This document shows, one piece after another, positions 8,872-23,180 of a stretch of 24,580 bases of DNA (positions within the stretch are counted from its first letter, which is position 1; each line of letters opens with the position of its first letter). A model generated the notes under the pieces. That model ran no database searches and was not told the origin of the DNA. It saw nothing but the letters and a program-made list of their open reading frames with translations. Position numbers and translations under genes: made by a program. The stretch spans positions 1 to 24,580 of IMG/VR virus record IMGVR_UViG_3300036851_000265; one strand, given 5' to 3'. This DNA is from a virus.

Positions 8872-10176
8872 TTAATATCCTGTTGCATACCAGTAGCTGC
8901 CTGAAGAGCTCTGTGCAGCATATAAAGTGAATCCTGTTGTTCCCAAACTTGACACTGTAGGTGCACGACCACCACCGTCGTTAATGACACGCTGCTGTGT
9001 TGCTTGAACATTGAAGCATGCATTTGGAAAAGTAATTGGAAAGCTTACAAACACACCTACTGATGAATATGATCGGAATCCCCACTGGAAAATAATTCCA
9101 TTTGGAAGAGTTACATATCCATTCGTTGACAATAATTCTGTGAATGTTCCGACGGCAGCGTCAACGTAAGCTTTTGTTGCAGCATCTTGAGGAAGTGCTG
9201 GATCTGTAACGTTGCGAATCAAATTTGAACCCATGTCCAAATAACCAGCCATGCTTGCGTTTGAAGCACCGTTACCTGCTCTGTTGAGTGGTGTATATCC
9301 TAGTGCTCCAGTGATATTGCCACTCGACAGTGCTGATGCAGAATATGTGCCACCGCCTGAGCGCTGTACGAATCCTGTACCTGATGTTGCAGAAAGTGCT
9401 TGAAGTTCAGCACCAAGTGTGAATGTCAGTGTACCGCTTGTTGTGATTGGAGAACCACCAATTGTTAAGCCAGTTGAACCCGAGGCTGCAACAGATGTTA
9501 CAGAACCACCTGATGGAAGACTGAAGAAACCTTTAACGCCGCCAGCATTTGTACCATAGTACGTGCTTACGCCAGGTGAATTTTGATCGTTGACCAGTGA
9601 GAATGTTCTATTAGCTGATAGATCACCGCCACCTGTAATAGAAAGTGTACCAGTTACAGTTCGTGAAGTTGGAACAGCGCTGCTTGTGTTTACAGAATCA
9701 ACCCATGCTGATCCATTGTAGATCTTTAATGTCGAGGTATCCGTGTCGTATGCAAGTTCACCTGTGCGTGGTGTCGTTACATTTACATTGGAATTGATAT
9801 TAGCTGTTGTGCCAATAATTGATACTTTACCAGAAGGGCGCCACTCTGAACCATTGTAGACAAAAAGTTCTTCAGTAGTTTTGTTGTACCATACTTGGCC
9901 AATGATTGGTTCGTTGATACCAAATCCAACAGCTGCAAGGTCTGTTTCATTCTCTGGTGTGAATGGTGTGTTTGTTTGCTGTGCGACTGCAAAATGTTCC
10001 ATCAAATGATAGAAATTCTCGTCAAAGCGCTCACCCCAATTAGGGGCACCGTTACCGTAGAGGGTCAAATCAGTATTGCGCTGAACGCCACCAACACCAT
10101 CGAAGGTTCGTGGTTGGATTGCTATACGAGTTGAGTCGTCAGTACTGTTAAGAAGATAAAGAACTGCTTCTGCCAT
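8872..10176 (-). CDS. Tail fibre protein with Gp53-like C-terminal tip domain, member 1 of a related trio (434 aa)
   Basis: Residues 36-112 carry the trio's N-terminal module (LYGNGAPNWGE, HLMEHF, GQVWYNKT, VYNGSEW), followed by a second short copy ending in IYNGSAW. A GALGYTPLN turn and a tail-fibre repeat (GYLDMGSNLI ... ATKAYVDA, about 311-340) come next. The last 85 residues (LSTNGYVTLPNGIIFQWG ... SVGVFVSFPITFPNACFNV ... TTGFTLYA ... SYWYATGY) fit the phage Gp53-like C-terminal domain, which caps many fibres. This is the first gene after a CATAAATA late-promoter-like site at 10211-10204, and AGGA seven bases upstream marks the start. It is confidently a fibre; the tip domain suggests contact with the host surface. 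Confidence 0.9.
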   Translation of the reverse strand: MAEAVLYLLNSTDDSTRIAIQPRTFDGVGGVQRNTDLTLYGNGAPNWGERFDENFYHLMEHFAVAQQTNTPFTPENETDLAAVGFGINEPIIGQVWYNKTTEELFVYNGSEWRPSGKVSIIGTTANINSNVNVTTPRTGELAYDTDTSTLKIYNGSAWVDSVNTSSAVPTSRTVTGTLSITGGGDLSANRTFSLVNDQNSPGVSTYYGTNAGGVKGFFSLPSGGSVTSVAASGSTGLTIGGSPITTSGTLTFTLGAELQALSATSGTGFVQRSGGGTYSASALSSGNITGALGYTPLNRAGNGASNASMAGYLDMGSNLIRNVTDPALPQDAATKAYVDAAVGTFTELLSTNGYVTLPNGIIFQWGFRSYSSVGVFVSFPITFPNACFNVQATQQRVINDGGGRAPTVSSLGTTGFTLYAAQSSSGSYWYATGY

Positions 10177-10203: not shown

Positions 10204-10211
10204 TATTTATG
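10204..10211 (-). promoter_or_regulatory. Putative T4-type late promoter before the tail fibre operon
   Basis: CATAAATA on the minus strand differs by one base from the T4 late -10 element TATAAATA. It lies in the only non-coding gap between the replication block and the fibre genes, 28 bases upstream of the first fibre ATG and just after the previous stop codon. The same octamer occurs upstream of gene 32. Late promoters need no -35 element, and none is apparent here. Confidence 0.6.
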
Positions 10212-15262: not shown

Positions 15263-15847
15263 TCAATGTAGGAAATCAGCAATGTCGAGTTTGTATTCAA
15301 CACTGTCAACATCGTGTACACCAATTAGGTATAACACATATGAAGAAACGCTGCTACCTCTACCGACGCCCCACACTATTTCTTTTTGTTCCAGTGTATT
15401 TATGACAAAAATTAACGCCCGCAAAAAGTTATCTAACTGCTGCGATTTGTATAGTAAAAGCTCCGAACGTGCTCGTTTGAACCGTTCCACTGCTTGTGGA
15501 GACACCTCTGTGTCCGTTATCCAGCCGTTTGACGTGCATTCTTGAATCAAACGCTCTTCAACATACATGCTAACATCCATTGCTGAATATGGGTCTGGCA
15601 GATTCCAGATTCCAACATTCGCCATCAATGCTGCGTTGAGGGTCTTTTTGGTACGTACTTGATCTTCAGGAGATGCATGCTTATTGAATTGCTTGATCGC
15701 ATTCGTTATCTGATTGACATAAAGACCTTTCGTTGACAGCCCTTGTGACAAACGACGAACCATCTCTTCTTCAGAGACTACTGATTCACCATCGATCCAT
15801 AGAACACGATTGTTCAGTTCGAAATTGATCTTCGTTTCAGTTTGCAT
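15263..15847 (-). CDS. DnaE-like fragment: PolIII-alpha palm motif without catalytic aspartates (194 aa)
   Basis: The last 60 residues resemble the start of the palm of bacterial DNA polymerase III alpha. NFLRALIFVINTLEQKEI (140-157) parallels the 'YFLIVxDFIxxAKxxGI' helix. VGRGSSVSSYVLYLIGVHDV (161-180) and LDIADFL (187-193) parallel the 'GPGRGSAAGSLVAYxLGITDxDPLxxxLLFERFL' block. The protein ends right there, just before the region that in DnaE carries the catalytic PDxDxDF aspartates. It therefore cannot be a polymerase by itself. The N-terminal 110 residues match nothing I recognise. The ATG overlaps the previous stop by one base (TAATG). It may be a conserved phage family that kept a nucleotide- or DNA-binding piece, or a remnant; its tight fit in the operon favours a working protein. 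Confidence 0.7.
   Translation of the reverse strand: MQTETKINFELNNRVLWIDGESVVSEEEMVRRLSQGLSTKGLYVNQITNAIKQFNKHASPEDQVRTKKTLNAALMANVGIWNLPDPYSAMDVSMYVEERLIQECTSNGWITDTEVSPQAVERFKRARSELLLYKSQQLDNFLRALIFVINTLEQKEIVWGVGRGSSVSSYVLYLIGVHDVDSVEYKLDIADFLH
15397..15404 (-). promoter_or_regulatory. Possible internal late promoter (CATAAATA)
   Basis: The same CATAAATA octamer found upstream of gene 32 and the fibre operon occurs here inside the DnaE-like gene, followed by CA. It could serve the downstream basic protein, GroES-like and membrane-protein genes. Since it is inside coding sequence (residues near 149-151), chance occurrence is possible. Confidence 0.25.
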
Positions 15848-20734: not shown

Positions 20735-20911
20735 TTAGACTAGCTCTTCAACGATACCAACGCCTTCGCTGATAATTAACACTACTGCTGCAGTTACTGC
20801 CCAAATGTTTGGAATGCCAAGCATTAGGGCGTAGCCAGTAATTCGCACGCCAGATTTAGCTAACGATACGTAAAGGTGTTTCTTTGGATCTGGAATGTAT
20901 TTGTCTGTCAT
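20735..20911 (-). CDS. Small membrane protein (58 aa)
   Basis: This short gene begins at an ATG overlapping the uvsX stop by four bases (ATGA), with GGGAG seven bases upstream. The protein starts with a hydrophilic KYIPDPKKHLYVSLAKSGVR, continues with one hydrophobic segment (about 25-49: TGYALMLGIPNIWAVTAAVVLIISE) that should cross the membrane once, possibly twice, and ends in GIVEELV. Small proteins of this size and plan (DPxxHLxVSxAKSxxRI then a membrane helix and EELV end) are found in other T4-like phages, function unknown. A 13-bp hairpin follows seven bases after the stop. Confidence 0.8.
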   Translation of the reverse strand: MTDKYIPDPKKHLYVSLAKSGVRITGYALMLGIPNIWAVTAAVVLIISEGVGIVEELV

Positions 20912-21975
20912 TTCTTAACTCCCTTCTTGGCTGCTCTCTTAGCTTTTGCACTTAGACCGGAATCGGATGTGTCTTCATCAGCGTCTACTATGACCGCCTG
21001 AAGTTTAACATCCGTCTTAGCTTCGCACTTTACCAGAATATCCTGATACATGTCATGGGTGATGTCCTTCTGATAGAAGGTTGTGTCTTCACCAGACAGA
21101 GCTAAGCGTGACCCACGCTTATCAAGCACACCAAGCTCTACAGCAACTTCCACCAAACCATTGAATGGATCCATACCTGTTTCGTATGGTACTTCCAACT
21201 GAACTGTTTGGAATGGTTGTGTAAAGCGAGTCTTGTAGCCTTCTGCCTTCAGCTTGATGCCCTTGGCAATGCCGTCGACGCGAAGTTTCAATTTTGTAAG
21301 CAATGCAATATGAGACAATGAGAACTTGATTGCATCTGAAACAATCCAAACACCTTCACCGTTCAACACATCTTGGTTTTTGTACACCTGAGCTGTTACA
21401 AGAATTGAGATGTTGTCGTGCTTGATTGCTTGCACGAACTGACGCATAACAGCCTTGAGCTGTTTGCTTCTCTGACCTTGGTCGCCCTTAAGGATGCCTT
21501 TGTCGAAGTTTTCTTCTTCGGTTTCGGTCATCAACATGTCCAAGCTGTCTACAACGATAAGAAGCTTATCGCCTGCACTTGGATCATCGCCACGATCTTC
21601 TTTGTATCCTTTGATCAAGGATGAAACCGTTTGCTGAAGCTGTGGAATTGTTTCGATTTCTGCATAGACGTAACTATCGTCGATCTTAACACCCAATGCC
21701 TTGACAAAGTCCTTATCCAAGGCGTGTTCTGAATCGATTACAACAACTGTTGCGCCTTGTGCTTGAGCTTCTCGCATGGCATTACATACAAGGAAGCTCT
21801 TGCCACTACCAGATGGTCCGGTGTAGCAACAAACTCGCCCTTGTGGGATGCCTTGCATGAAGCTGCCAGAAAGAATTCTGTTCAGCACATAATTTCCAGT
21901 TGAAAACCAATAGCGAGGTGGTTCAGACCCGCCTTCCTGTTCAACTTCCTTTCTAAAAATATCTAAGTAACCCAT
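20908..21975 (-). CDS. uvsX: UvsX RecA-like recombinase (355 aa)
   Basis: UvsX forms filaments on single-stranded DNA and catalyses homologous pairing and strand exchange, supporting recombination-dependent replication and repair. The ATP-binding core is complete: Walker A GPSGSGKS (53-60), the RecA-type VIDSEHALDKDF with the likely catalytic glutamate E83, and Walker B LLIVVDSLD with D143. The DNA-binding loop region KGDQGQRSKQLKAVMRQF follows. The length is close to T4 UvsX (391) and RecA. The C-terminus is acidic (DADEDTSD) and then strongly basic (AKAKRAAKKGVKK). AGGAG six bases before the ATG supports the start. Upstream is the gene 32 terminator, so uvsX may be read by readthrough or from an unseen promoter. 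Confidence 0.96.
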   Translation of the reverse strand: MGYLDIFRKEVEQEGGSEPPRYWFSTGNYVLNRILSGSFMQGIPQGRVCCYTGPSGSGKSFLVCNAMREAQAQGATVVVIDSEHALDKDFVKALGVKIDDSYVYAEIETIPQLQQTVSSLIKGYKEDRGDDPSAGDKLLIVVDSLDMLMTETEEENFDKGILKGDQGQRSKQLKAVMRQFVQAIKHDNISILVTAQVYKNQDVLNGEGVWIVSDAIKFSLSHIALLTKLKLRVDGIAKGIKLKAEGYKTRFTQPFQTVQLEVPYETGMDPFNGLVEVAVELGVLDKRGSRLALSGEDTTFYQKDITHDMYQDILVKCEAKTDVKLQAVIVDADEDTSDSGLSAKAKRAAKKGVKK

Positions 21976-22036: not shown

Positions 22037-22999
22037 TTACGCCTTTGCTGCTGATGCTTGACGGCGAGCACGAATCTGAGCCAGAATCTGGTCAGCGTCA
22101 TTGCTCTTTGGTGAATCATCAGTTTTAGGAGCGGCTGCTGTTACTGCAGCTACTACTGGTGTTGTCTTTGGTGCTGGGACATCGCTGTCATCACTACCAT
22201 CAACATCATTGTCATCATCTCCACCGCCTGCTTCTGCAACAACACGAGTCTTTGGGGCTCCTGCGTCTGCAGCAGCTGCTGCGCCATTGTAGTTTGAACC
22301 GGTCATTGCTGCGTTCAACATTGACTCAACCTTCTCAAGGCCTGGATGTGCTGGAAGCAACGTTACCAAGTCGACAATGTTCTCTTCGGCCAACTCAATT
22401 TCCTGCTCTGTGAGAGGAATCTGCTTTGGACGGAAGCGTGTGCCATTGACATACGAAGGATAGTCACCCTGCTTTGTCTTCTTGATGTGGAAGTTGTATC
22501 CATTGCCGTACGACGTTGGAACTGCTTCAAGATCACCTGTTTCGAAAGCAGCCTTGATTACATTGTAAAGCTGAAATCCGAAAGCGATAAAACGAACCTT
22601 ACCCTGATGTGTCTCGCCAGTTTCCTTATTTGGCTCAAGTGGATCCTGAACAACCAAAGCCTGTGCAATGTGCTGACTCGTACGCCAGTACTTCTTGCCA
22701 TTAACCTTGTCACCTGCCTTGTAATAATGCTGGGAAAGTTTGCAGATTGGGCAATCTTCCTTGTACATCTTCAAGCAAGGAACTGTTTTCTTCTCACCGT
22801 TGATGGTGAGAGCGTGGGTCATTTTTTCAACCACGAAAAGCTTTGGATTGTTTGTATTCTTGTCAGGCAAGAAGCGGATTACTGCTTCTTCGTCAAACTT
22901 CATATTCCAGAATGGATAATAGTTGTTTGGACGGCTTGAATTGCCCTGATTGTCGTTCTTCTTAAATGCTGCGCGCAGCTGGTCTATTGTTAATTCCAT
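22037..22999 (-). CDS. 32: gp32 single-stranded DNA-binding protein (320 aa)
   Basis: gp32 coats single-stranded DNA during replication, recombination and repair and recruits partners such as UvsY. NYYPFWNMKFDEEAVIRFLP (26-45) begins the core. The zinc site is H62-x12-C75-x7-C83-x2-C86, close to H64, C77, C87 and C90 of T4 gp32. ALVVQDPLEP and HQGKVRFIAFGFQLYNVIKA match the OB-fold region. The N-terminus (MELTIDQLRAAFKKN) corresponds to the basic cooperativity arm. The C-terminal part is Ala/Pro-rich with an acidic run (DDDNDVDGSDDSD) and then a basic helix at the very end. The ATG at 22999 is chosen because homology begins there and the 49 codons upstream look like leader RNA. The ribosome site (AAAGG, 11 bases upstream) is weak, as expected for a regulated start. 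Confidence 0.95.
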   Translation of the reverse strand: MELTIDQLRAAFKKNDNQGNSSRPNNYYPFWNMKFDEEAVIRFLPDKNTNNPKLFVVEKMTHALTINGEKKTVPCLKMYKEDCPICKLSQHYYKAGDKVNGKKYWRTSQHIAQALVVQDPLEPNKETGETHQGKVRFIAFGFQLYNVIKAAFETGDLEAVPTSYGNGYNFHIKKTKQGDYPSYVNGTRFRPKQIPLTEQEIELAEENIVDLVTLLPAHPGLEKVESMLNAAMTGSNYNGAAAAADAGAPKTRVVAEAGGGDDDNDVDGSDDSDVPAPKTTPVVAAVTAAAPKTDDSPKSNDADQILAQIRARRQASAAKA

Positions 23000-23131
23000 G
23001 TTAATTTCTACCTTTTGTTCTAATTGTTCTAGGCAAAACTGATCTATTAATTTGTTATTGTTCAGTTCTGCTTTTAAACAGGGCACATAATTGTGCTTCT
23101 TGTTTTTTCGGATGGTGCCTGTCACCACACG
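23000..23131 (-). promoter_or_regulatory. 32: Gene 32 leader with possible autoregulatory pseudoknot
   Basis: On the transcript TGGTG-ACAGG-CACCA forms a 5-bp hairpin (23127-23113). Its ACAGG loop can pair with CCTGT at 23082-23078, making a pseudoknot. A second hairpin, GCACA-ATTA-TGTGC, lies at 23096-23083 between them. The remaining 80 or so bases to the ATG are A/U-rich with little structure. T4 gp32 represses its own mRNA by nucleating on a 5' pseudoknot and spreading over unstructured RNA, so this layout fits the same control. Confidence 0.55.
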
Positions 23132-23137
23132 CCAACC

Positions 23138-23166
23138 AACATACACGTATGTGTTTTGATTGTCAA
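23138..23166 (-). promoter_or_regulatory. Sigma70-like promoter for gene 32
   Basis: Minus-strand TTGACA (23166-23161) is followed after 17 bases by TATGTT (23143-23138), a perfect -35 with a four-of-six -10. Transcription would begin near 23131, placing the putative pseudoknot at the very 5' end of the mRNA. Confidence 0.6.
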
Positions 23167-23172
23167 CGAGTC

Positions 23173-23180
23173 TATTTATG
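23173..23180 (-). promoter_or_regulatory. Putative T4-type late promoter before gene 32
   Basis: CATAAATA on the minus strand, in the non-coding gap, is identical to the site before the fibre operon and one base from the T4 late consensus. T4 gene 32 is also transcribed from several promoter classes, including late. Confidence 0.55.

Follow-up and report, generated by a model that had tools for sequence, protein, structure and literature searches.

The window analysed here, a 24,580-base virus record (IMG/VR IMGVR_UViG_3300036851_000265), encodes on its minus strand a gp32-like single-stranded-DNA-binding protein, and our subject is the leader of that gene. A sequence-only reading of the stretch had proposed that the leader forms a pseudoknot, in which the hairpin loop ACAGG (23122-23118) pairs with CCTGT (23082-23078) across a second hairpin. 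Both paired segments and the hairpin between them (HP2, 23096-23083) were found on the minus strand where that reading had placed them, and comparison with related leaders indicates that the pseudoknot is real, conserved, covarying and located on the transcribed strand. Its parts and the genes that follow it are:

23123-23128, minus strand: 5' arm of stem S1, GTGGTG (sequence, relatives' covariation, folding energies)
23118-23122, minus strand: loop ACAGG, the 5' strand of stem S2 (sequence, relatives' covariation)
23112-23117, minus strand: 3' arm of S1, CACCAT (sequence, relatives' covariation, folding energies)
23097-23111, minus strand: A-rich linker, part of pseudoknot loop L3 (sequence; L3 is A-rich in relatives)
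23083-23096, minus strand: inner hairpin HP2, GCACA-ATTA-TGTGC (fold and relatives)
23078-23082, minus strand: 3' strand of S2, CCTGT (sequence, relatives' covariation)
22037-22999, minus strand: gp32-like single-stranded-DNA-binding protein, 320 amino acids (phrog_1192, 2e-36; phrog_224, 6e-21)
20908-21975, minus strand: UvsX-like recombinase, the next gene downstream of gp32 (phrog_97, 2e-52)

The name gene 32 is justified, since a profile built from close relatives of the window gp32 matched the solved structures of T4 and RB69 gp32. Nucleotide searches of a phage collection with the window sequence gave no match, and the best cultured relative by protein is Xanthomonas phage XacN1 (44%). 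An upstream GTG start at 23146, which would give a 369-codon frame, was rejected as it is not common to relatives. In most relatives an in-frame stop lies shortly upstream of gp32 and the best Shine-Dalgarno sequence stands directly before the equivalent ATG, so that translation from further upstream, a finding that would have told against a leader structure, is unlikely.

In the window, S1 has six pairs, one of them G-U, and HP2 adjoins the CCTGT of S2 with a gap of zero. The minimum-free-energy fold of the leader contains both S1 and HP2; its energy of -28.6 kcal/mol (z -2.97) was equalled in 1 of 200 shuffles. S1 plus HP2 contributes -12.2 kcal/mol, and S2 with HP2 nested inside it -8.4 kcal/mol. 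A nested alternative, ACAGGCAC/GTGCCCTGT, was rejected: its extended helix is much weaker than S1 plus HP2 (-6.7 kcal/mol), and inspection of relatives by eye did not reveal the extension. S1 and S2 can coexist because no base is common to both, and a switch between them is not needed. For counting we used a strict motif, in which S1 has a G-C closing pair and no fewer than 5 pairs, the loop is exactly 5 nucleotides long and pairs over its full length with downstream sequence (one G-U is allowed), and the gap is 4 to 40 nucleotides. It appeared by chance in 44 of 5000 shuffles of the window leader, and across the whole window it occurs at only four minus-strand and two plus-strand places. The window leader alone is suggestive; the data from relatives are decisive. 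The sequences support a pseudoknot of the H type, in which HP2 is an optional hairpin of the third loop. On the opposite strand, HP2 and its A-rich 5' side resemble an intrinsic terminator (23081-23098, plus strand).

IMG/VR scans with protein alignments yielded about 300 loci. They supplied a set of 152 leaders, all non-redundant and each with its start codon assigned. The 58 leaders with a profile score of at least 370 bits make up the clade of the window, and the other 94 served as outgroup. The strict motif was present in 30 of the 58 clade leaders, compared with 16 of 1161 control stretches from the same loci (1.4%) and 94 of 11600 dinucleotide-shuffled leaders (0.8%). The binomial value for clade against controls is 3e-40 if the leaders are independent, which is too small for a literal reading, as the motif had been drawn up by eye from about a dozen of the same leaders, and these phages are relatives of one another; the motif is nevertheless filled by widely differing sequences. 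Without the requirement for G-C closure the counts were 38 of 58 clade leaders and 128 of 1161 control stretches. When hairpins were picked by S1 alone, the complement of the loop lay downstream in 29 of 34 leader cases and upstream in 5, and outside leaders it was found downstream in 8 of 74. The motif was not enriched elsewhere in the same loci, and a single outgroup leader (1 of 94) contained it, which is chance level for the other gp32 lineages. Rfam searches gave no match.

Covariation was examined in curated cores. These were chosen for pairing, so the figures that follow are descriptive and the uncurated motif counts are the test. Among 34 distinct cores, S2 was fully paired in 31 (permuted partners, mean 5.2, maximum 12) and S1 in 29 (mean 2.0, maximum 9). 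The second S2 pair was A-U in 10 cores, G-C in 10, U-A in 8 and C-G in 6, and it was broken in none. A MAFFT alignment of the full pseudoknot regions misplaced HP2 and S2, and 31 distinct fixed-length cores were taken instead, including the later-found leader L304. Double changes occurred at all 11 pairs of both stems, in 120 cells compared with a shuffled mean of 31.5; 98.5% of cells were paired (shuffled, 64.5%), and the covariation score was 0.956 against 0.23. Sliding the partners by 1 to 3 columns reduced pairing to 37-54%. The sequence-only reading had suggested looking for compensatory changes in both stems of homologous leaders, and these, like the pairing of the ACAGG and CCTGT positions itself, are clearly borne out.

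L304, from another collection, was the only match in the genome collection and the sole relative retrieved after the motif had been defined. Its sequence, CAGATG/ACAGG/CATCTG...GAACA-ATTA-TGTTC CCTGT, is identical to the window in the loop ACAGG, the CCTGT of S2 and the ATTA loop of HP2, and differs from it by compensatory changes in S1 (three of its six pairs) and HP2 (one of its five), with no disruptive change. The 3.2-kb contig is filed under a Thaumarchaeota metagenome-assembled genome; since it encodes a gp32 of the window's phage clade, the contig probably represents phage DNA that was misbinned. When G-U and A-C mismatches were tolerated to the same extent in the search, leader motifs contained 16 G-U and 3 A-C pairs and controls 33 and 30. 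The excess of G-U over A-C therefore points to pairing on the transcribed strand.

The cores also define a consensus. The closing pair of S1 is G-C in 32 of 34, and the loop reads A-N-R-G-G, with A in 32 of 34, then any base, a purine, mostly G and mostly G. In three cores an A stands opposite A at the first S2 pair, and by analogy with T4 the loop A1 may serve as a one-base L1. The gap before S2 is either short and A-rich (5-17 nucleotides; 63% A overall), which is what a strand that occupies the minor groove of S1 should look like, or longer with HP2 adjoining S2. Of the 29 leaders whose gap was at least 14 nucleotides, 24 had the latter arrangement; shuffled gaps gave 4.9.

On a gp32 tree all pseudoknot-bearing rows fall in one branch of 62 rows, which includes the clade (ultrafast bootstrap 98; Shimodaira-Hasegawa-like approximate likelihood-ratio test 91). 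The pseudoknot label is clustered on this tree, with 8 changes compared with 22 in shuffles, and both main sub-branches have it. This distribution fits one ancestral gain followed by several losses or undetected variants. Leaders L096, L201, L263 and L288, which fall outside the strict form, appear to bear variants. Some clade members without the pseudoknot (L017, L018 and L188; L172, L181 and L257; L182 and L198) have other shared leader elements (TTATCATAACCCTTGA; a GTGACCGTTGA..GTCAC hairpin; CAGAAC repeats), which may stand in for it.

Two further features lie between the pseudoknot and the start codon:

23033-23071, minus strand: third hairpin HP3, GCAGAACUGA (23071-23062) with UCAGUUUUGC (23042-23033) (fold and energy)
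23000-23032, minus strand: A-rich open tract with a weak Shine-Dalgarno sequence AAGG (23014-23011), presumed region of gp32 spreading and ribosome binding (sequence, fold)

From the end of S2 to the ATG the window has 78 bases, 73% A+T and 50% A; in relatives this distance ranges from 42 to 111. The sequence-only reading had described about 80 A/U-rich, unstructured bases before a weakly preceded ATG. The base composition holds, but the tract is not unstructured throughout, as HP3 forms 10 pairs (one of them G-U) and leaves about 33 open nucleotides. The weak ribosome-binding site was likewise found, consisting of AAGG alone at 11 nucleotides from the ATG, compared with 5-6 matching bases in most relatives. 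The dominant words in the tracts of relatives are ATTAGA and AATAAT, not UUAAA, and ATTAGA is present in 22 of 38 curated leaders. In the L099 leader and many others, TTAGATAA/ATTAGAA repeats lie between the pseudoknot position and the Shine-Dalgarno sequence; they are possibly the counterpart of the T4 UUAAA repeats.

Promoter-like boxes were found upstream of the pseudoknot:

23173-23180, minus strand: T4-type late promoter box CATAAATA, upstream of the pseudoknot (relatives' match)
23161-23166, minus strand: -35-like TTGACA, sigma-70-type (10 of 12 matches, spacer 17)
23138-23143, minus strand: -10-like TATGTT, sigma-70-type, with a predicted messenger RNA (mRNA) start a few bases 5' of the pseudoknot

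Of the 38 curated leaders, 37 have a late-type box, [TCAG][ACG]TAAATA (identical with or close to YATAAATA), upstream of the pseudoknot. The TTGACA-17-TATGTT pair of the window is by itself no rarer than in shuffles; in many relatives a sigma-70-like pair gives predicted starts 2-14 nucleotides 5' of S1. As read from the sequences, one sub-branch (L011, L287, L293, L284) has the sigma-70-like box after or overlapping S2. In L011, L269, L284, L287, L290 and L293 the sigma-70-like promoter seemingly follows the pseudoknot and is itself followed, ahead of the start codon, by a GTGAAC...GTTCAC hairpin. Late-promoter-like CATAAATA boxes occur on the coding (minus) strand of the window at 10204-10211, 15397-15404 and 23173-23180, the first of them just upstream of the gene at 8872-10176.

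In T4, gp32 binds a pseudoknot in its leader, from which it spreads along an open, A+U-rich tract containing the ribosome-binding site (PMC3014915), and RB69 gp32 exerts the same control through a diverged operator (PMC535899, PMC3014915). What the clade has in common with the T4, T2 and RB69 operators is a pseudoknot in the leader of the gp32 gene, followed by an A-rich tract in which the ribosome-binding site lies. The pseudoknot loop almost always begins with A, the base that also forms the one-nucleotide L1 of T4, and, as between T4 and RB69, the sequence has diverged while the structure is kept. The architecture, however, is different. The T4 pseudoknot as read here, TGCC/A/GCTATGA/GGTA-AAGTG-TCATAGC, has an S1 of 4 base pairs, an S2 of 7 base pairs and a short L3, whereas the clade has an S1 of 5-12 base pairs, an S2 of 4-5 (7 in a few) and an L3 of 5-30 nucleotides, often with a hairpin, and its pseudoknot lies farther from the start codon. 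The T4 geometry (S1 of about 4-5 base pairs, one-base L1, S2 of about 7 base pairs, short hairpin-free L3) is not found in the window, and a scan for it in the clade gave chance level, with 2 of 58 leaders compared with 0.6 expected (maximum 3 in shuffles). The statement of the sequence-only reading that neither sequence nor spacing copies T4 thus stands.

In a cyanophage-like group (L036-L159, whose gp32 is at 29-36% identity) the T4-geometry scan gave 7 of 47 leaders compared with 0.75 expected, mostly a hairpin over the promoter. Leaders of this group have a hairpin, for example TGTGTAG..CTACACA, that covers the -10 region of the promoter, with two or three AGGCA copies between this hairpin and the start codon. 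No intermediate between the clade and T4 pseudoknots was seen among the outgroup leaders, and those of XacN1 and CM1 contain no pseudoknot of the strict motif. The leader of the T4-type gene 32 in RB49 is likewise reported to be without a pseudoknot (PMC535899, PMC3014915), and almost none of the remaining outgroup leaders examined has one.

By analogy, we consider it likely that the leader pseudoknot is a gp32 autogenous translational operator. Autogenous repression is the most likely role because the gene, the position, the structure class and the A-rich tract are shared with T4 and RB69; we infer transcription starts, gp32 binding and translational repression, the latter two from those phages. 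When gp32 exceeds the available single-stranded DNA, one gp32 molecule would bind the leader pseudoknot, and further molecules would polymerise cooperatively along the A-rich tract, over the Shine-Dalgarno sequence and the AUG, where the coating would block ribosomes. In the window, HP3 would cut the tract that needs gp32 cover to about 33 nucleotides. Several observations weigh against an operator of this kind. The loop and the S1 closing pair leave little or no linker for L1, and one end pair may need to open. The distance from the pseudoknot to the start is longer than in T4, and hairpins break the tract in the window and in several relatives. About 15 of the 58 clade leaders have no such pseudoknot, so it is not indispensable. 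In the sub-branch whose sigma-70-like promoter lies downstream of the pseudoknot, the early mRNA would lack it.

Other explanations were weighed against the same data. The pseudoknot could act without gp32 binding, either capping the 5' end of the gene 32 mRNA and so stabilising it against 5'-dependent RNase E attack, or providing a ribosome standby site. The predicted sigma-70 starts close to S1 would place it at the mRNA 5' end in many relatives, it soon follows a late-promoter box in the other sub-branch, and T4 gene 32 mRNAs are unusually stable (PMC3014915). These start sites are predictions, however, a cap has no need for an S2 formed by a loop with conserved A-N-R-G-G and G-C closure, and an A-rich tract ahead of the start codon is shared as well; we regard this role as unlikely. 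That the ligand is another phage or host regulator, such as a RegA-like repressor or a ribosomal protein, is more doubtful still: the assignment to gp32 rests on analogy, but the pseudoknot stands on the gene for a protein whose counterparts in T4 and RB69 recognise pseudoknots in their own leaders, and the strict motif shows no enrichment elsewhere in these loci.

Action as folded coding-strand single-stranded DNA rather than RNA has been proposed for STAXI pseudoknots, which lie near ssb, topoisomerase and integrase genes in two or three tandem copies (PMC2864571). The window pseudoknot, in contrast, is a single copy in a leader, with neither tandem repeat nor Rfam match, and its counterparts, with few exceptions, have promoter-like boxes on one side and the gp32 start codon on the other, which makes such action highly improbable here. 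Chance pairing, or an inherited simple hairpin that forms no pseudoknot, could be argued from the roughly 1% likelihood that a single leader shows the motif and from the selection of the curated cores for pairing. We give it the least credence, since it is already contradicted by the uncurated counts against controls, by the compensatory changes at all 11 pairs and by the later-found L304.

For the origin of the proposed gp32 operator, the sequence-only reading had called it a divergent version of the T4 one. The operator role is supported, but that phrase also implies common descent, which is uncertain given the different geometry and the lack of enrichment in intervening gp32 lineages. We tentatively suggest, as a possibility that we hold with some doubt, that the operator arose independently of that of T4 in an extensive lineage of T4-like phages that are uncultured and in part jumbo. 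It would have its own architecture (a 5-nucleotide A-N-R-G-G loop and HP2 in L3), and in one sub-branch it would stand upstream of an early-type promoter and so be carried on late transcripts only.

The gene 32 leader of these phages thus has a pseudoknot that is differently built from that of T4, in a phage group where one was not previously known. A 2010 review noted that the T4-type gene 32 pseudoknot was possibly still the only viral pseudoknot that autoregulates translation and that diverse T4 relatives need study (PMC3014915). The roughly 40 divergent leaders described here are the comparative data that it asked for. They show which parts are free to vary (nearly all bases of both stems), which are fixed (the G-C closure of S1, the loop A1 and the G-rich loop end) and which are optional (HP2). 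With them one can test directly whether shape or sequence is what gp32 recognises, and whether pseudoknot-based autogenous control was inherited or arose twice.
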